Positions 16,001 to 24,070 of a stretch of DNA of 64,000 nt are shown in pieces; the stretch's first letter is position 1; the number at the start of each line of letters is the position of its first letter. The notes under the pieces are model-generated. The model did no database searches and was not told where the DNA came from. It saw nothing but the letters and a program-made list of their open reading frames with translations. The translations under genes and the position numbers were made by a program. This stretch comes from a virus. Where the stretch lies: the IMG/VR virus record IMGVR_UViG_3300020411_001522, positions 1 through 64,000 of that record; one strand, written 5' to 3'.

Positions 16001-16134
16001 GCTGCATTAAGATTCTTCTTTAAACCTGTAGTAATCTCTTGTGTTTCCTTACTGGCACTCTTATCCACCCCCTTAAAAGATACCATCTTATAAAGGGCAG
16101 GTTTTTTAATAACTGTCTTGGGTTTTTCTGCCAT
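13018..16134 (-). CDS. Tape-measure-like tail protein, 1038 aa
   Basis: Basic, coiled-coil N-terminus (to ~120), then alternating hydrophobic helices and Gly/Ala-rich stretches (about 120-430), typical of tape-measure proteins that line the tail tube and enter the membrane. The second half has repeated A-R-G-G-W and G-G-G-V-type turns, with a W-I-N-G-P-Q-S-G-Y-P-V-S-L-D-G-G block like those in cyanophage tape-measure proteins. TAATG overlaps join it to both neighbours. Having two adjacent long proteins of this type is unusual compared with T4's single gp29. Function inferred from composition and position. Confidence 0.65.
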   Translation of the reverse strand: MAEKPKTVIKKPALYKMVSFKGVDKSASKETQEITTGLKKNLNAANSLGGTLNSIALALEKQTIAMKEMVQFQISQKGIDERYRKLKDSNEKRDAARQKIEDKKEAQREKRDDAAEVKTTSGKIIAGFVGVAAKTFGGFFAMLGSIATWLFAGIVKFAIFDWIMKNPDKVKALAKGLYAIGKWAFGVTTFLLGTAGKGLIKFLENPLSLRGFFGVMQFALGLAPIFAAFTILRNPLAALKGIKAVVGMLFGMVKNLMKAGGLGGKLRKVASSVLRSRVGGAAVFGGAAYAAARLSGAEQGEAIGTGVGAGAGQAIGASLGAATGIPGAGALAGAAGAFVGGAVGGGIGKAMQPIIDPFMKFFGAIGEVFASVFAPIQQAAGDFFKALGGAFNKVLDFIEPAMPMIKKVGAFFGTVAFAPLIGLMKALTFILSFFAGGGKKDEKPKVEKPKPTPKKEFKPTKRVSGRFDMDTGQAYINDKEVSTDEYMAYYNMSYAEKLKNYGVTIEKAAGGMVVVPKMDDGGEASEGESKLGAMFEFANDYRQMMTRKVMALSQLLALPIKAVGISIVSVIAKVGSMFAKFLPGPLKSMIGNFIAPLAEVFGVPMSVMGSESSGGSGGVDEDKSQIQEEGNQIKALNKMIGGGEKSVIGLMNKIIHAVSPKSSEGGWWNPGNWFAGGGVIQPQVPEYARGGWINGPQSGYPVSLDGGNSVSFIGHGLEWVGMPNRASGGSAFIVPFNTPKTKTDSGLTGRRMREAVSKGYATPKGFADGGEAKYKSINSYESLYKAGGYVDDHGIAAGMRMVDVYYPTYTVKTGFLGLGKKEQRRRFKFGSSDNMNMSTKDFVTWKMGDVWGKVEPPETKPTETIKGDKIKPNIEPIQRRKRGSGAKDRGRVGGNFSGDQQKNVRGEYAFKGKGDTEPQNQQLDPATRVVKMTLDKAGQVFNSVKDVGKRLLGFKSEENSNKRKTKENANMAVMQAVEAQNQKVAAMGAGGGEASQPEEVPIVIPNSNQWNEADPYFVSRFSRFRETQADLTYTPTLK

Positions 16135-19100
16135 TATCGTCTAAGGATACCAGGTGTCAATGGTTGAGTGACTTTCTTGTAGGTCTGACCACCGCCACCT
16201 CCACTATTTATTGCGATAGGCATGGATATAGGTAGACATACAGGAGTGTCAGTCTGCTCAAGTGCTTCCTCTGCCTTTGCTCCATCTATCATCATTTGAC
16301 GGTCTGCTTCATTCCTATTTTCTAGTTGTTGATATTTGTCTATTGATGATTGGATTGGGACGTCTTCTTTCTTAGGTTTTCTCTTGAATCTACTGAATAT
16401 ATTTACAACCTTAGTAATAAGATCCTTAACACTTGATCCTGCTGTAGGCACACTTTCTCCTGTAGGGACAGCATCAGCAGCAGGTATCGCTGCAGGATTA
16501 GCTCCTTGCATCTTAGGCTGAGGTGTCTGACCTCTAAATTCTTGTGTCTGTGGCATATCACCATCTGTATCACCCTCTACCTCTGCACCAAGTTGTGCTG
16601 CAGCAAACGATCTATGATCACTTGGCGATGCATCTAAGTGAATATGGACTGATCCACTAGGTTTATTTCCTTGCAATCCAATGACAGACTTAGGTCCTAC
16701 CATTGATCCTACACTGGTTTTAATACTGTCAAAGTGGTGAAATTGCATCCTGTCCTTACCATGATTAGCAATCACCACAGTGTTATGACTGTCACCACCT
16801 GCGTATACAACTTTACCAGTAACACCTGCAACAACTGGTGTGCCTCTATCTAATCCTGGTCTATTCCAATCTCTTACTGCAACATAGTCTCTAGGCACGA
16901 TAGGATGACCACCTAGTCTATTGTTGTTATATGAATGACTATCAGATTTATTATGGTGTAGAGCATAATCACTGAATGGAGTTTGAGGTGTCAGTTTAAC
17001 ATCAGCAACTGCTCCATTGGTTGATAACAAACCACCTTGTGAATATCCCTGTATCTCTTTCTTCCTTTGGATCTTCTGATCCATTCTCCTATACATCCCA
17101 ATAGAAGGAGATTCACCCATACCAGTCCTAGAAGATCTCTTCTTCTTGGTGACCATCTTCTTGACAAAGCTGCCAATTCCAATGGCAGCACCCATGAGAA
17201 GACCACCCACTGCCATTTCTTCTGTATCTTCATCAGTATCCATTGTATCTACAGCTCTCTGTAGAATACCAATAAGACTATTCTTACCTACACCTATCAT
17301 CTTGATAGTTGTAGACAAATCACTCTGTGGTTTCTTTCTCTCCTCTGCCATCAAGTCAACCTGTGGCACAGGAATTGCTTTCACACCACCACTACCACCT
17401 GAGCTTGCAGATGCACCACCTCCAAAAATCTGAGATACTACTGACAGTTGAGGACCTAATATCTTCTTGACGTTAGGTGCAAATATACCAAAAAGTGCAA
17501 TACCACCAGTAATAGCAGCAACTAGACCCTTACCTAAAACATCTACTGCTAGTGCTAATCCCATCAAAGGTGATGGTGTGAGTCTATTCTTAGATGATAT
17601 CTTAGGTTTAGTATCCTGCTGAGTAGGAGCTGGAGTGAAAGTTGCTCTATCTCTATTCTTATCAAATTTAGGAGTCTGACTTCTACCTCTAAATTCTCCA
17701 CCCTGATCAAACTGCTCAAGATCTGGTTTCTTCTCTGATCCTTTTGCATTTGCTACCTGATCTAATTCTATATCTCTGCCAGGATCCTTACGTCTTATAA
17801 CATCCCATGCAAATCCTATAGGATTTAAAGTAAATGCGACAATATTCTTAATTAAATTGAAGGTAAACGACAATACCTTAAAGACTGTCTTAATAGCACC
17901 ACCTAATACAAAACCTACAAACTTTGTAATAGGTATAATTGCCTTCATTATAGTGCCGACAATATTACCCAATGCTTTAAAGAATGTGCCGAGTAACTCT
18001 TTCATTGGCTCAAGCACTGGCATGAGAGGAGCTAGGAATATGTCCTTCATCATTCCAAATGCTCGTGCAATAGGCTCAAAGATAGGTTGAATAATAGGTC
18101 CTATCTTACTACCAATGAATCCACCTAAGAAGTCACCAATAGCAGCACCAATCATAGGTCCGAAAGGTCCTAAGAATGGTAACAATGCACCACCTGCTGC
18201 TGCTCCCGCTACACCACCGATTGCTTTACCTACACCTTCACCTGCTGCTGTGCCTTTTGCCTCTCCTTCTCTATCTCCACCCATGATGCGACCGATACCA
18301 CCAACTACGGATGTAGCACCTGCCAACATTGTGGCACCACCGCCAGGTATCCTTCCTTTCAATCCTTTGAATGCATTACCCATACGTCTGGTAGCACCCA
18401 TCTTCATGCCACCGATCTTAGACGTCGGTCTAACTCTATTCTCAAATGCTTTTAATCCGCCAGGCTGCTTACGAGCTGCCTTACGCATCGTATTATACTC
18501 TTCTTTAGTATAAAACTTATTAGTCTTTTTGTCGTAATATCCGTTTTTTACTCTTTCAGTTGCTTCTTTAGCACCCTGCTCAGTCTTTCTAGCACCTTCA
18601 AAGATATTGGTTAGTTTACCTACATCACTAAACAACTTCCATGGCATGAGTAAGTATTGTGCACCTCTAAGTGCTGCAAGACCTACCAATAACTGCATTC
18701 CTCCCTTAAAGAATCGGAATACCCTATTGATCTTATTCTCTCCTAAATTATCTGTCCGACCAAACATATTGGTCAGTCCATTTAAGACATTATTAACACC
18801 AAAACTCGTTATCTTATATACAAACTTAACTAGAGATGCTACTACTTTAAATACTTGTTTAATTGCTTCTCCATTCTTCGACATCCAGTCGAGACCACCA
18901 AACAAGAGAAATGCACTAAAAATTGAGCTGAAGAATCCACCGATCCTATCCAACATCTTCTGGAAAGGAGTCAATTCCTTCTTTCTATTCTCTTTCTCCT
19001 TCGCTATCTCCTTGCCTTTCTCTAGATTCTTAGACATGTCCGCAGACTTGTCTCTCTTTCCTCGTAACTTCTCTCTTTTCTTCTGGACTTTTAGGCGTGA

Positions 19101-19340
19101 AGCGATAAGTTTCTTCTCTTTATCCTTACCTACATCATATTTTCTATCTGTCTTGACTTTGCTTACAATGTAATCCTTTTGGAATTCAGTAATGATTGCC
19201 ATCTGCTCGATGGACTTACCGATGCCCTCAGTGGTCTGTCCGAGTCTGTTCACACTCTTCCGAAGTCCATTCATGTTGGTGCCGACCGTAGTCGTGGACT
19301 TGAAAGGTTTAACAGTAACGAATGACCGTATTGCTGACAT
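16134..19340 (-). CDS. Tape-measure-like protein with M23 peptidase-like domain, 1068 aa
   Basis: N-terminal ~200 residues are basic coiled coil; residues ~330-480 are Gly/Ala-rich hydrophobic helices (for example GGVAGAAAGGALLPFLGPFG). Near residues 800-902 lies an M23/LytM-like unit: G-T-P-V-V-A-G-V-T-G-K-V-V-Y-A-G-G, T-V-V-I-A-N-H-G, then G-S-V-H-I-H-L-D-A, which resembles the HxH zinc-ligand strand of M23 ('GPHLHFEV'). The usual first ligand motif (HxGxD) is degenerate. Its start overlaps the 63-residue ORF (TAATG). I infer a tape measure that may cut cell-wall cross-links; catalytic competence is uncertain. Confidence 0.65.
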   Translation of the reverse strand: MSAIRSFVTVKPFKSTTTVGTNMNGLRKSVNRLGQTTEGIGKSIEQMAIITEFQKDYIVSKVKTDRKYDVGKDKEKKLIASRLKVQKKREKLRGKRDKSADMSKNLEKGKEIAKEKENRKKELTPFQKMLDRIGGFFSSIFSAFLLFGGLDWMSKNGEAIKQVFKVVASLVKFVYKITSFGVNNVLNGLTNMFGRTDNLGENKINRVFRFFKGGMQLLVGLAALRGAQYLLMPWKLFSDVGKLTNIFEGARKTEQGAKEATERVKNGYYDKKTNKFYTKEEYNTMRKAARKQPGGLKAFENRVRPTSKIGGMKMGATRRMGNAFKGLKGRIPGGGATMLAGATSVVGGIGRIMGGDREGEAKGTAAGEGVGKAIGGVAGAAAGGALLPFLGPFGPMIGAAIGDFLGGFIGSKIGPIIQPIFEPIARAFGMMKDIFLAPLMPVLEPMKELLGTFFKALGNIVGTIMKAIIPITKFVGFVLGGAIKTVFKVLSFTFNLIKNIVAFTLNPIGFAWDVIRRKDPGRDIELDQVANAKGSEKKPDLEQFDQGGEFRGRSQTPKFDKNRDRATFTPAPTQQDTKPKISSKNRLTPSPLMGLALAVDVLGKGLVAAITGGIALFGIFAPNVKKILGPQLSVVSQIFGGGASASSGGSGGVKAIPVPQVDLMAEERKKPQSDLSTTIKMIGVGKNSLIGILQRAVDTMDTDEDTEEMAVGGLLMGAAIGIGSFVKKMVTKKKRSSRTGMGESPSIGMYRRMDQKIQRKKEIQGYSQGGLLSTNGAVADVKLTPQTPFSDYALHHNKSDSHSYNNNRLGGHPIVPRDYVAVRDWNRPGLDRGTPVVAGVTGKVVYAGGDSHNTVVIANHGKDRMQFHHFDSIKTSVGSMVGPKSVIGLQGNKPSGSVHIHLDASPSDHRSFAAAQLGAEVEGDTDGDMPQTQEFRGQTPQPKMQGANPAAIPAADAVPTGESVPTAGSSVKDLITKVVNIFSRFKRKPKKEDVPIQSSIDKYQQLENRNEADRQMMIDGAKAEEALEQTDTPVCLPISMPIAINSGGGGGQTYKKVTQPLTPGILRR

Positions 19341-19531
19341 TAGAGATTAACTCGATTCCTGTTATTTTCTGCTGCACGGCGTCTTTCTTCTTCTTGAAGA
19401 TAGGCTAGTAACAAATTAACATAGACATCTCTCTCCCATGGGATCATATTCTCTAACTCAGTCAAAGAATACTTGTGATGCTGCATCAAAGCAAAATTAG
19501 TCTTGTATAGGTTTTCAAGACTATCATGCAA
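19340..19531 (-). CDS. Probable frameshifted C-terminal extension of gp26 (tail assembly chaperone-like)
   Basis: This frame has no ATG at its start: it opens at a TTG (19529-19531), and the first ATG is 15 codons in. It is in the -1 frame relative to gp26, which ends 6 bases upstream. At the end of gp26 the sequence T TTT TTC (19549 to 19543) is a canonical -1 slippery heptamer in the right phase, so a slip would fuse gp26 to this 63-residue segment. It carries Y-S-L-T-E-L-E-N-M-I-P-W-E-R, reminiscent of the T domain of lambda-type gpGT. Its stop overlaps the start of the tape-measure-like gene. Internal ATG initiation is the alternative. Confidence 0.6.
   Translation of the reverse strand: MHDSLENLYKTNFALMQHHKYSLTELENMIPWERDVYVNLLLAYLQEEERRRAAENNRNRVNL
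19498..19523 (-). other. Stem-loop downstream of the slippery site
   Basis: TAGTCTTG and CAAGACTA form a perfect 8-bp stem with a 10-base loop in the mRNA, 19 bases after the slippery heptamer. The spacing is longer than the usual 5-9 bases for a stimulatory element, so its role is uncertain. Confidence 0.4.
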
Positions 19532-19536
19532 CAGAC

Positions 19537-20247
19537 TTATGCGAAAAAAGCTGCTAAGCCCTCAAATACAATGTCATTATCTTTTTTGGTCTTAGGATTC
19601 CTCACACTCATGGTATAACTGAGTTTTGGAATAGTTTCAAAGAATTCTTGGATCTTCGCAAATTGGTCTGAATTCAGACTCTCTAGGAAGTCAACTGCTT
19701 CTTTTTTAGTGAAACTATCATAAACTTCATCACCATCGAATGCTTGACCAATACAACTTGCTGCAAGTTGGAAAACGTCATCAATGGTTTGCTCACCATC
19801 TGTCATATTCTGTTGGACGAAAATGTCGAGTGAAGGATACTTCATTACGACTCCAACATCATCAGTAAACATGATTTTAGGATTATGATTATCAGGTACT
19901 TGTAACTCAACCTTGTCTAAAGGCACTGATACATCCACCTGTGTTTCACCATCATCAGGCATTGTTACCTTGAATTCACTAACCTCTCCGACCGCTTTTG
20001 ATCTGATTTTGAGGAAAACATACTCAATTTCAAAAGTCGCGAGTTTTTCAACTTCCTTGTCCAAGAGAGACGTGCAGTTCTTAATGATAGTTTTAACTGC
20101 CTTAACCATCTCCTTTTCATCCTTCGATTCCATGGCGAGATAGAGGAGTTTCTCTTCTTTAACAAGGAAAGGACGGTAAGTAAGTTTCTTACCCGTGATC
20201 GGGATTTTAAGGTCATGCTCAGGTAGTGCAATTTTGGGTAATGGCAT
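19537..20247 (-). CDS. 26: Baseplate hub subunit gp26-like (tail chaperone-like)
   Basis: 236 residues matching the T4 gp26 baseplate-hub family: L-T-Y-R-P-F-L-V-K-E-E-K near residues 23-34, then F-E-I-E-Y-V-F-L-K-I-R-S-K-A-V-G-E-V, a P-D-D-G-E-T block, and the C-terminal F-A-K-I-Q-E-F-F-E-T-I-P-K-L. In T4 gp26 helps build the central hub. Its place directly ahead of a -1-frame ORF and tape-measure-like genes is the arrangement of tail assembly chaperones (gpG/gpGT) in other tailed phages. A CTAAATAA box is at about 20270. Confidence 0.8.
   Translation of the reverse strand: MPLPKIALPEHDLKIPITGKKLTYRPFLVKEEKLLYLAMESKDEKEMVKAVKTIIKNCTSLLDKEVEKLATFEIEYVFLKIRSKAVGEVSEFKVTMPDDGETQVDVSVPLDKVELQVPDNHNPKIMFTDDVGVVMKYPSLDIFVQQNMTDGEQTIDDVFQLAASCIGQAFDGDEVYDSFTKKEAVDFLESLNSDQFAKIQEFFETIPKLSYTMSVRNPKTKKDNDIVFEGLAAFFA
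19543..19549 (-). promoter_or_regulatory. Candidate -1 ribosomal frameshift heptamer T TTT TTC
   Basis: In the gp26 frame the mRNA reads GCT TTT TTC GCA TAA. T TTT TTC fits X XXY YYZ with the codons in the correct phase. After a -1 slip, reading continues CGC ATA AGT CTG TTG CAT into the 63-residue frame without a stop. Confidence 0.6.
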
Positions 20248-20274
20248 AATATACTCAAATACTATATGTTTTAT

Positions 20275-21108
20275 TTAGACCCCAATACCGACGAAGTTTT
20301 CGAGACTGGAATCTATGCTAAGTGAATCAAGCACAGAAGAGTTGTCCATTGGAATTTGGACATCCTTAAGTGCACCTTTAAACATCTTAGCATTGTTTGG
20401 TGTGTCCATACGGTATCTCTCGTAATAGAAAGAGATATCCAATTTAATTAGATCCGTAGGTCCATTATTTAGTGTGATTGCAGACATGTCAAATGGAAAT
20501 GCTCCATACATTGTCCAACAGGCAGATACACCGTTGAAACGCTGCATATAGGTTGCTTTTTGACCATTATCTTTAGTCCTAGTCTGCTTTCCAACGTAGT
20601 TGGATGCTAATTCCCATTTAATTAGACGAAGTTTACTTGTATATTGATCATACATACCCACTCTATTCTCTGAGTCGGATGCTGTGTAATTCATCCATCT
20701 CTCAAAATACTCTCTATGATACATGTCTTTAGGTAGCAAGAATGATACTTGCATTTCACTAAAACTAGTATCAGTGGCAAATCTTCTCATTGCACCAACG
20801 TCTCTTACTGTGCCAACAGTAATACGTCTGCCAGGTATACTCACAGTGTCAGCATAGTAATTCATCATATCAGCATGCTCACGGTATTTCCTCATCTGCG
20901 TCTGGTCTTCGATACCGACGAATCCAAGTACGTTATCAAGGAATTGGTTACCAGTCAAAGACTGCTCAGCAAAGTCACCGCCAACACTTGTCATAACAGG
21001 TGGCGGGTCAATTACCACTTGGAAGAGATTAGATCTTGCAGGCTCTTTATTACCTGTCCCGATTAACTCTCTAAAAGTGTTTATTGAATTGGGTTGTTTG
21101 TAGCTCAT
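20275..21108 (-). CDS. 54: Baseplate tail-tube initiator gp54-like
   Basis: 277 residues with tail-tube-type features: Y-A-D-T-V-S-I-P-G-R-R-I-T-V-G-T-V, then M-Q-V-S-F-L-L-P-K-D-M-Y-H-R-E-Y-F-E-R-W, and a beta-rich C-terminal half. This resembles the gp19/gp54 tube fold, in which 'V.LPG......' and 'F....D...R.YFE.W' recur. gp54 starts polymerisation of the tail tube on the baseplate. Neighbours gp26 and gp48 (tube cap) support this; assignment to gp54 rather than another tube-like protein is by context. Confidence 0.7.
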   Translation of the reverse strand: MSYKQPNSINTFRELIGTGNKEPARSNLFQVVIDPPPVMTSVGGDFAEQSLTGNQFLDNVLGFVGIEDQTQMRKYREHADMMNYYADTVSIPGRRITVGTVRDVGAMRRFATDTSFSEMQVSFLLPKDMYHREYFERWMNYTASDSENRVGMYDQYTSKLRLIKWELASNYVGKQTRTKDNGQKATYMQRFNGVSACWTMYGAFPFDMSAITLNNGPTDLIKLDISFYYERYRMDTPNNAKMFKGALKDVQIPMDNSSVLDSLSIDSSLENFVGIGV

Positions 21109-21575
21109 ACTCTGCTCCAGATTACGCTACTAGGCACTGGCACTTTGACTCCCATTCTTGTAAATAGAAACTGCTCTAATGGCAGTGGGACATAATCTGT
21201 AAATGCCGAAGGTGGCACTATGTATATATTTGATGCACTAGACATAAAGTATTTATGATAGCAACGCGAAGGATATGTATTTGCACCTCCTGCCCATGAT
21301 TTTCCTACTATTTGCCTTGCAGATGGGCGTAAATAGTGGATATTACCACCACTAAACTGTCCTAAAAAGTTGTCTACATCAGTCACAAGGGTTAGTGGGT
21401 GCATGTCATACCAGTCTAATCGTTGTGATTGTGCTACATAGTCATAGAATAGAATATCACCTTCTCTGATAGGACGCCCTAAAGACTCTAGACCATATCT
21501 AACCTGTGAGCGATACCAATCCTTAGATTGACTACGCCCTCCTGCTAGCTCTTTTACGTCTTTGAATAAACTCAT
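21105..21575 (-). CDS. T4-family conserved protein, 156 aa, unassigned
   Basis: Soluble protein with a D-W-Y-D-M-H-P-L-T-L-V-T-D-V-D-N segment followed by G-G-N-I-H-Y-L-R-P-S-A-R, a pattern I associate with small T4-family virion or DNA-packaging genes, but I cannot name it. It overlaps gp54 and gp4 by 4 bases each (ATGA), so the three are translationally coupled. Confidence 0.6.
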   Translation of the reverse strand: MSLFKDVKELAGGRSQSKDWYRSQVRYGLESLGRPIREGDILFYDYVAQSQRLDWYDMHPLTLVTDVDNFLGQFSGGNIHYLRPSARQIVGKSWAGGANTYPSRCYHKYFMSSASNIYIVPPSAFTDYVPLPLEQFLFTRMGVKVPVPSSVIWSRV

Positions 21576-22006
21576 ACCTTAAGGTGTTTTTCGGTGAGTA
21601 TCATAAATTCCATGTTTCTGTCAAGACAGTATTCAGTCGCTGCTTTCCATTTTGCCTGATTAATACCGTAGGTCTTGACCTCATTAATAAACTTTTTTGT
21701 TTGTCTCTTAGGTCGTTTTGGCACCATACATTGCTTCTCTGGTTTAACCTCAACGATGTATTTCTTGATTTTATTGTCTTTTGTGCGTGCCTTTACATAG
21801 AAATCAGGGAAATATCGGTGCACACGGCGATCCACAGGTGACACATAGGGGATAATAATCTCTTCACTACCCCATTGGAGCACATTTTCATTCTTATCAC
21901 ACCAGACCATAAACTTTCTTTCCCACAAACTCCTATAAATAATATTTGTAGGATCACCTTTATATTTTTTCGGTTGTGATGGTCTGTATCTTCCCGAATA
22001 TGCCAT
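21572..22006 (-). CDS. 4: Head completion protein gp4-like
   Basis: 144 residues. The N-terminus Y-S-G-R-Y-R-P-S-Q-P-K-K-Y-K-G-D then I-I-Y-R-S-L-W-E-R-K, W-G-S-E-E-I-I-I-P-Y-V-S-P-V-D and H-R-Y-F-P-D-F-Y-V-K-A-R matches T4 gp4 (gp50/65), which has a nuclease-like fold and is needed for head completion before tail joining. The E..IPY...D...H.Y.PDF..E(V)K layout recalls PD-(D/E)XK nucleases. Its ATG overlaps the ATG of gp48 on the other strand by two bases inside CCATGG. Confidence 0.85.
   Translation of the reverse strand: MAYSGRYRPSQPKKYKGDPTNIIYRSLWERKFMVWCDKNENVLQWGSEEIIIPYVSPVDRRVHRYFPDFYVKARTKDNKIKKYIVEVKPEKQCMVPKRPKRQTKKFINEVKTYGINQAKWKAATEYCLDRNMEFMILTEKHLKV
21934..21941 (+). promoter_or_regulatory. 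T4-type late promoter box TATAAATA (plus strand)
   Basis: Perfect octamer on the plus strand, 63 bases upstream of gp48 and inside the gp4 coding region. It is the best promoter candidate for the plus-strand gp48-gp53 operon. Confidence 0.6.
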
Positions 22007-23024
22007 GGCAAATAATAGACTATTAGTATTCCCTAGATCAAAACCGTATGGCGGAAGTCGCTCTGAGACCAGAGGCGACGTAACTTCTGCTGACGCTTAT
22101 CCTACACAGGTGATTGATTACCTAAAACTTGACATTTATGATAGTCAAGAGAGTAATCCTTACAATGAAATAGGTGGTGACTCAAATAATGTCATCGCTA
22201 ACTCTATATATTTATACCTCCCTTCCAAACTTTCTGAGCAATTCAGTGCTAACTACACCAACCATAAACTAGGTCAGGTTGGTAGTAACCTAGTGCAGAT
22301 GGGTCAAGGTGGTATGGCAGGTGACGGTTTTACAGATAGTATTCAAGAAGCTGCAGATGCTGCAAAAGCACAACTTGGTTTTAAGATGGCAGGAGATGCT
22401 ATCAATGCCGTTGTTGCTAAAACTGGTGGATCCAGTAGTTTGTCTGCTAACTCTCTTTCAGCATTAACCCAAAAACGTGTCTTCAACCCCTACGAGGAGA
22501 CTACATTTGAGGGTATGAATTATAGAAGACACAATTTTAACTTCAAACTAGTGCCTAAAAGTGCGAAAGACGTAGAAATGATCGGTGAGATCATTAAAAC
22601 TCTTCGTATTGCTATGCTACCTGGCAGTAGTAAACAGAAATGGTTGACTATCCCTGATTTCTTCAAAATCAGTATAATTAGATATAGTGACGACGGTCAA
22701 ACAGAAAAAATACAAACACCTGATAAAGAAGGTGGTGTGTTGCAGGATCTATACAGATTCCCAACAAAACTAGTGCTAACAGATATGGGAATTGACTATT
22801 CACCTGATGGCAACTATGCCAGTCTCAAGTCATTCTTCGGTGAATCGAAAAACTTCTCTGAGTATGATTATGGTCCTGTTAGTTATAACTTATCACTTAC
22901 ATTTAGCGAAACTGCTCTTCCAATCAAGAATTTCTACGATAAGAATTTCCAATACGACTCTGAAGGTGAATGGAATTGGGAAGATTGGGCAGGTGAAGGA
23001 GATTCAACTGAAACAAGCTCATGA
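22005..23024 (+). CDS. 48: Baseplate tail-tube cap gp48-like
   Basis: 339 residues, first gene of the only plus-strand operon. It carries the block N-P-Y-E-E-T-T-F-E-G-M-N-Y-R-R-H-N-F-N-F-K-L-V-P-K (near residues 165-190), characteristic of the T4-like tube cap gp48, with a Gly-rich helical insertion before it. gp48 sits on the baseplate and accepts gp54 to start the tail tube. It overlaps gp53 by 4 bases (ATGA). The start codon overlaps that of gp4 on the opposite strand. Confidence 0.8.
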   Translation: MANNRLLVFPRSKPYGGSRSETRGDVTSADAYPTQVIDYLKLDIYDSQESNPYNEIGGDSNNVIANSIYLYLPSKLSEQFSANYTNHKLGQVGSNLVQMGQGGMAGDGFTDSIQEAADAAKAQLGFKMAGDAINAVVAKTGGSSSLSANSLSALTQKRVFNPYEETTFEGMNYRRHNFNFKLVPKSAKDVEMIGEIIKTLRIAMLPGSSKQKWLTIPDFFKISIIRYSDDGQTEKIQTPDKEGGVLQDLYRFPTKLVLTDMGIDYSPDGNYASLKSFFGESKNFSEYDYGPVSYNLSLTFSETALPIKNFYDKNFQYDSEGEWNWEDWAGEGDSTETSS

Positions 23025-24070
23025 GTCAATACTTTTCCTACTTACCTAACATCAAGGTCAGAAAGACTGGTTATCGTCAAGATAGCACGTCTCCCTATGT
23101 TAATGCGAAGAATATCTTCCGTAGAGTCAAAATTCGTGATGAGTTGGATGACATCATTTTAGGATTTGAGAAATATTACATCAAAAACAGCGAAAGACCA
23201 GATCAACTCGCTCAGAAGTTTTACAATGATACTAAGTATGATTGGGTTATTCTACTTTGCAACGAAATAACCAATCTATACAATGATTGGCCAATGAATG
23301 AATATGAGTTGACTGAGTATATTGTAAGGAAATACAATTTCACAAATCCCACTGATATTGGTAAAACTAGGCATTGGGTCACTAAAGAGGTCAAAAGAGA
23401 CGGTAGAGTGTATCTGCAAGAGGACATGGAAGTGCCTCAAAACTTTGAATTTACCCTACCTGGCGGTGAAGTGATTCCACAGGCAGATCTTGTAAGACCC
23501 ATTTCTTACTATCAACACGAAATGAGGCAAAATGAGCGAAAACGTCTTATTTACATTTTACGTCGAGAATACCTAGATGACTTTGTAGAGGAATTCTTCA
23601 GTTTGGTGTCTTATTTGCCAAACGACGAATTAGAGGTAGATATCTTTGGAAAGGAAACAAAGACTACTTTCCGCACAGTCCAAGAAATCTTCAAACCGAC
23701 GAAAAAGGAATATACGACCGAAATCGGAAAAACACCAAGTATCACATTCTTGGCACAACAGCAACTTACGTCCAGAGTGTATACACCTGGCACAGGGTCT
23801 ACAGTCAATGGCACGAATGTTGCATCAACATTGTCACCTTTCGATTCAGCAGGAGCGTTTACTGGGGATGGATCTACAACGACTGATCAAAATACTTACA
23901 GTAGTGGTAGTAGCAGTAGTAGTAGCTCGAGCAGTAGCTCTTCTTCTTCTAACTCAAGCTCTTCATCTTCTTCTTCTTCCTCCTCATCATCTTCTTCCTC
24001 CTCAGGATCCTCTGGGTCGTCAGGATCATCAGGATCAAGTGGCGGTGGATACTATGGAGGAGGTTACTAG
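23021..24070 (+). CDS. 53: Baseplate wedge gp53-like with poly-Ser tail
   Basis: 349 residues. The N-terminal ~210 residues match the T4 gp53 wedge family: R-V-K-I-R-D-E-L-D-D, Y-Y-I-K-N-S-E-R-P-D-Q-L-A-Q-K-F-Y-N-D-T-K-Y-D-W-V-I-L-L-C-N, N-D-W-P-M-N. The last ~60 residues are nearly all Ser, then Gly-Ser repeats and a G-G-G-Y-Y-G-G-G-Y end, far longer than T4 gp53 (196 residues). gp53 joins wedges into the baseplate. The tail is low complexity and probably disordered or surface exposed. Confidence 0.85.
   Translation: MSQYFSYLPNIKVRKTGYRQDSTSPYVNAKNIFRRVKIRDELDDIILGFEKYYIKNSERPDQLAQKFYNDTKYDWVILLCNEITNLYNDWPMNEYELTEYIVRKYNFTNPTDIGKTRHWVTKEVKRDGRVYLQEDMEVPQNFEFTLPGGEVIPQADLVRPISYYQHEMRQNERKRLIYILRREYLDDFVEEFFSLVSYLPNDELEVDIFGKETKTTFRTVQEIFKPTKKEYTTEIGKTPSITFLAQQQLTSRVYTPGTGSTVNGTNVASTLSPFDSAGAFTGDGSTTTDQNTYSSGSSSSSSSSSSSSSSNSSSSSSSSSSSSSSSSSGSSGSSGSSGSSGGGYYGGGY

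Follow-up and report, generated by a model that had tools for sequence, protein, structure and literature searches.

Sequence comparison indicates that the gp26 locus described here very probably directs the synthesis of two proteins from a single start, gp26 itself and, by -1 slippage of the ribosome, a gp26-51 fusion, which would act as the short and the long tail assembly chaperones. The window, meaning the whole stretch of DNA analysed (64,000 nucleotides, positions 1 to 64,000), comes from a 92-kb viral record, IMGVR_UViG_3300020411_001522, and its gp26 is 96% identical to that of the cyanophage P-TIM40 (Kyanoviridae). As read from the sequence, all the features of the frameshift locus lie on the minus strand (Table 1), and the genes follow the order tail-tube-like protein, gp26, gp51 frame and tape-measure-like gene, which is the position of a tail assembly chaperone. 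The tape-measure role is suggested by the position of the gene and by weak profile matches, and its product would be the expected client of the gp26 and gp26-51 chaperones. In PHROGs, the family that this M23-domain gene matches (phrog_90) is filed as endolysin. Elsewhere in the window, the gp53-like baseplate wedge protein (23021-24070) carries a long terminal tail of low complexity, rich in serine and glycine.

Table 1. Features of the gp26/gp51 locus, in window positions.
Feature	Position	Strand	Evidence
Tail-tube-like protein, directly upstream of gp26	20275..21108	minus	phrog_45 E=8.8e-41; PF23849 E=9e-6, just under cut-off
gp26, zero-frame product, 236 aa; proposed short chaperone (TAC-N)	19537..20247	minus	PF12322 E=8.9e-66, phrog_150 E=1.7e-69
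SD-like GAGGG; proposed 5' frameshift stimulator	19559..19563	minus	GAGG ends 10 nt before heptamer
Slippery heptamer T TTT TTC	19543..19549	minus	in-phase T TTT TTN in 173/174 dereplicated loci
Zero-frame stop TAA of gp26	19537..19539	minus	sequence
-1 frame extension, 67 codons (RISLLHDSLENLYKTNFALMQHHKYSLTELENM...), gp51 C-terminal domain	19343..19543	minus	phrog_634 E=1.1e-28
Hairpin, possible 3' stimulator: TAGTCTTG (19523-19516), 10-nt loop, CAAGACTA (19505-19498)	19498..19523	minus	covariation
-1 frame stop, 1-base overlap with next ATG (TAATG)	19340..19342	minus	sequence
Tape-measure-like gene, 1068 aa, M23 peptidase domain	16134..19340	minus	phrog_90 E=2.8e-191, PF01551

The final codons of gp26, GCT TTT TTC GCA TAA, contain T TTT TTC in X XXY YYZ phase and ahead of the zero-frame stop, just as the first-pass annotation had read them, although without stating the strand. 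That annotation had proposed, as a check, that the heptamer and the -1 ORF be sought throughout the T4-like cyanophages, and the outcome was strongly positive: in a comparison set of 174 dereplicated loci from IMG/VR and named phages, 173 carry an in-phase variant near the gp26 stop (168 T TTT TTC, 4 T TTT TTT and 1 T TTT TTA), a conservation that, at the level of sequence, is far beyond chance. Scans of viral contigs with the HTVC008M and T4 gp26 proteins returned few distinct loci. The codon 5' of the heptamer specifies Ala, Ser, Asn, Asp or Gly, yet it ends in T in 173/173 loci, and therefore it is the nucleotide and not the protein that is conserved (log10 P about -35 against gp26 codon usage; pooled P values such as this one assume independent loci and are optimistic, the effect being nonetheless near-absolute). 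Four other genes lie on the minus strand from 16134 to 22006, and none of them contains an in-frame T TTT TTN. The zero frame stops one codon past the heptamer in most loci; in the cyanophage-like loci L116, L121, L123, L135, L156 and L159 it runs eight codons beyond the heptamer before its stop, giving the short form a different tail.

The second element of the cassette lies upstream. GAGG starts at position -14 relative to the heptamer in 104 of the 173 loci, with 10 nt between the two, a distance in keeping with the 9-14 nt given for stimulators of -1 shifts (PMC5009743). It falls on a conserved Glu-Gly pair in which Glu is written GAG in 104/146 cases, whereas Glu-Gly pairs elsewhere use GAG in 20/84 (p=2.6e-12), and the duplex with the anti-SD is stronger (-6.83) than after synonymous resampling (-5.47, sd 0.11). 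The SD-like GAGG thus evidently is the result of a codon choice beyond what the protein needs.

The third element, RNA structure downstream of the heptamer, is more variable. The RNA that follows the heptamer folds at -8.8 kcal/mol; synonymous resampling yields -4.3 kcal/mol, with a mean z of -2.1 and p about 1e-37, and six control regions gave folding z values of -0.03 to -0.58. The hairpins are clade-specific: one of 11 bp starts 5 nt past the heptamer, one of 5 bp at 10 nt, and that of the clade of the window, of 8 bp, at 19 nt. Compensatory changes exceeded shuffled and slid controls in all three stems, the groups for the 11-bp and 5-bp hairpins having been chosen by the encoded residues and not by pairing. 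A whole-set scan for one helix alignable across all clades gave a weak common signal, because the hairpins are clade-specific, and this candidate was rejected; some distant phages (HTVC008M, P19) have no strong downstream hairpin. In the window, TAGTCTTG and CAAGACTA do form the perfect 8-bp stem, 19 bases downstream, that the first-pass annotation had described. Its proposed part as a downstream element held in so far as compensatory changes are present: over 32 relatives, 82% of the cells are paired and 23 cells changed on both sides, against 6.9 in shuffles (0/500). It is, however, specific to this clade, and its role is uncertain because 19 nt is far for a classical stimulator; in many other clades the hairpin is stronger and lies closer to the heptamer. 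Candidate stimulators are therefore present as sequence signals on both sides of the heptamer, the SD-like GAGG and the covarying hairpins, with the stem of the window being atypically distant.

Beyond the heptamer, the -1 frame encodes the C-terminal domain of gp51, since it matches phrog_634 ("gp51", baseplate hub assembly catalyst). It had been noted as an open 63-residue ORF with no ATG of its own; the frame is indeed open, but it extends for 67 codons after the heptamer, the figure of 63 counting from an in-frame TTG, and it does contain an ATG, the first one being its 20th codon. Its stop overlaps the tape-measure-like gene, as also noted then, by a single base. The predicted fusion would comprise 235 + 67 = 302 aa. 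Across the loci the -1 frame measures 52 to 70 codons, and a gp51 frame is recognisable by tblastn in 527 phage records. Compared with P-TIM40, the -1 frame shows 16 differences, 13 of them at third positions, with 1 amino-acid change, and over 31 relatives its substitutions number 765/379/150 at positions 3/1/2; by this pattern, the -1 ORF is under purifying selection.

Current annotation treats gp51 as a separate small protein with its own start (in the window TTG 19531, in some relatives an ATG), which might be translated by re-initiation after the gp26 stop. We consider this improbable. Many phages are annotated with a gp51 CDS of their own, and an ATG is found at -1 codon 4 or 5 in 77/173 loci and within the first ten -1 codons in about 100/173, so some separate initiation is possible; however, no SD signal precedes these early ATGs (anti-SD strength -1.05, against -1.14 for random sites and -3.10 for the gp26 start), and the GAGG is too distant from them to have a role in initiation there. 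The first -1 codon, which lies 5' of every possible start, is CGN (Arg) in 155/173 loci, with a variable base that alters the overlapping zero-frame residue (Ala, Gly, Val, Glu), and this too speaks against a start of its own; the conserved G of the CGN codon could alternatively come from RNA context. Furthermore, the Aeromonas phages Aeh1, 65 and P19 and the Cronobacter phage S13 have no ATG, GTG or TTG before -1 codon 19 to 32, and their late-start ORFs are still gp51 (phrog_634 E about 4e-10 to 1e-13). A separate gene would leave the heptamer, the SD-like codon bias and its spacing unexplained, and T4 gp51 is the full fusion and not a free tail. Loss of the heptamer together with a separate ORF, the pattern named in the first-pass annotation as speaking against a frameshift, is absent from nearly all loci and appears only in the Vibrio phages K364 and K367 (L172, L273), a remote lineage (about 22-24% identity) whose gp26 homologues have no heptamer and overlap a small ORF through TAATG. 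Re-initiation may therefore operate there, and in these two phages a switch from frameshifting to re-initiation is possible.

Two further explanations place the frame change elsewhere than in the ribosome. RNA polymerase could slip on the T run at the junction, so that the mRNA itself would change frame, but this is highly improbable: the run has six T in 169/173 loci and seven or eight in the other four, below the length of nine A or T given for slippage in bacterial transcripts (PMC5009743), and it was on run length that we rejected this candidate. The SD-like element, the codon phase and the downstream hairpin also point to the ribosome. An error of sequencing or assembly that split a single gene, conceivable given that homopolymer runs are error-prone, can be dismissed, as the same offset recurs in >170 independent loci and in finished genomes such as those of P-TIM40, S-PM2, P-SSM2, KVP40 and Aeh1.

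The reading of gp26 and gp26-51 as products of -1 frameshifting is also consistent with what is found in T4 and other relatives: (i) T4 gp26 is a PF12322 domain alone. T4 gp51 (249 aa) begins with a PF12322 domain (E=3.9e-52, residues 1-201) and continues into a phrog_634 tail, and the gp51 genes of two further Tevenvirinae have a PF12322 domain too. The predicted frameshift product is thus colinear with a protein that T4 encodes directly. (ii) T4-type gp26 also ends in Phe-Phe, written G/A TTC TTT, in one case G TTT TTT, without a heptamer, so that a separate long form goes with the absence of the heptamer. (iii) The window represents the opposite situation, since the 92-kb record (possibly a fragment) contains one PF12322 match, which is gp26, and one gp51-tail match; an independent full-length gene with PF12322 and the tail, of the T4 gp51 type, was not found in it. 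(iv) In length, cyanophage gp51 reaches only about 20% of its T4 counterpart (PMC3037559), as would follow from its being encoded as the -1 tail of gp26. (v) Aeh1, previously listed as the sole T4-like genome without gp51 (PMC3037559), carries at 2583-2759 (L266) an unannotated 58-codon -1 ORF after T TTT TTC, with the gp51 tail (phrog_634 E=1.1e-13), and a -1 ORF is likewise unannotated in P19 (L171), VmeM-32 (L269) and S13 (L270). This shows that the gp51 of Aeh1 is not missing and is, as predicted from these ORFs, encoded behind the shift. Taken together, it seems fairly likely that the ancestral chaperone pair of the T4 superfamily was made through a dnaX-like three-part cassette (SD-like element, T TTT TTC and a fast-evolving hairpin), now present in cyanophages, pelagiphages, rhizobial, Aeromonas, Vibrio, Cronobacter, Citrobacter and other phages, that the Tevenvirinae swapped it for gene duplication and lost the heptamer, and that phages scored as gp51-less, such as Aeh1, encode gp51 behind the shift.

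In the mechanism that we propose, most ribosomes would translate gp26 as far as its TAA and so yield the 236-aa short form (TAC-N), and a minority would move back by one base on T TTT TTC, with tRNA-Phe re-pairing in both the P and the A sites, aided by the SD-like GAGGG at its 10-nt spacing and by the downstream RNA structure. The slipped ribosomes would then read 67 more codons and complete the 302-aa gp26-51 fusion (TAC-NC). In this scheme the product of the next, tape-measure-like gene would be given a coat by the gp26 part, and tail-tube subunits would be brought in by the gp51 tail. We find in the sequences the cassette, its conservation, the selection on the -1 frame and the homology of the predicted fusion to T4 gp51; that slippage takes place, at what rate, and that the products are chaperones, we infer. 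The two predicted products share an N-terminal domain, extended at the C terminus in the long one, and are colinear with T4 gp26 and gp51, both forms being presumably produced. Since T4 gp51 is one in-frame fusion and T4-type gp26 ends in Phe-Phe without the heptamer, the best reading of the two products, gp26 and gp26-51, is as the short and the long chaperone, a function to which homology, gene order and the two-isoform design all point. The AlphaFold model of gp26 (pLDDT 87) found as its best fold match among 350,542 PDB chains the HK97 tail assembly chaperone 2ob9, a match that is not significant (E=0.64, prob 0.44), and a sequence profile had no match in the PDB.

Part of this has precedents. 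Xu, Hendrix and Duda reportedly described in 2004 the frameshifts of lambda G/GT and of related tail assembly chaperone genes, and Vladimirov, Gautam and Davidson are said to have identified in 2022 the chaperone genes of T4-like phages, gp26 and gp51, with a mechanism other than frameshifting being proposed, to go by the title. The first-pass annotation took frameshifting to be undescribed for T4-type gp26; this was probably mistaken, in view of the 2022 work, and the idea is probably not new in principle. A review of lambda G/GT and related chaperone frameshifts states that the G-T shift is widely conserved among phages with long tails, 'except T4' (PMC5009743, 2016). Of the later papers, one refers to the 2022 study when it mentions poly-T shift signals in the TAC-N genes of T4-like phages (PMC12846349), and another for the use of a separate fused gene by some T4-like phages. 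The chaperone identity and the poly-T sites in T4-like phages therefore appear to be prior art. In the literature searched we found no direct description of cyanophage frameshifting, and neither the three-part cassette and its covariation nor the gp51 concealed in Aeh1 was described there; the cassette and this hidden gp51 are what the present work adds.

If correct, gp26 and gp51 of a highly abundant marine virus group would be two isoforms of one chaperone and not two separate baseplate proteins, and the annotation of hundreds of genomes would be corrected. Frameshift in some phages and a duplicated gene in others would constitute a natural experiment on how the ratio of chaperone isoforms is set, and the cassette is amenable to a simple reporter.

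The resemblance to the G/GT arrangement of lambda-type tails, proposed from the start, was borne out: the -1 ORF encodes the C-terminal domain of gp51, T4 makes this fusion in frame as its own gp51, and the genes are arranged as in a G/GT locus, with gp26 and gp51 placed after the tail tube and ahead of the tape-measure-like gene. As in lambda, two ORFs lie just upstream of the tape-measure gene, a -1 shift would occur at the end of the first, and the short and long forms have a common N-terminal part. In contrast to lambda, whose heptamer is G GGA AAG, the heptamer here is T TTT TTC and is accompanied by the SD-like element and covarying hairpins, and there is no detectable sequence similarity to solved chaperones. 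With T4 the locus shares the protein families, PF12322 for gp26 and PF12322 plus the phrog_634 tail for gp51, but in T4 the long form has a full-length gene to itself, encoded on the opposite strand, whereas here one gene and its -1 frame would suffice. The chaperones of Vandenendeviridae and Andersonviridae, for which a poly-T -1 frameshift with the motif GTTTTT is described in the relevant part of PMC12846349, likewise have a T-rich slip site at the end of TAC-N, a conserved -1 ORF and the tape-measure gene next; these are other phage families, and that part of the paper holds no analysis of an SD-like element or RNA structure. In design the cassette also resembles that of E. coli dnaX, with its SD-like element at 9-14 nt spacing, slippery heptamer and downstream stem-loop, although the gene is unrelated, the heptamer is A AAA AAG in dnaX and T TTT TTC here, and in the phages the shift would lengthen the protein.
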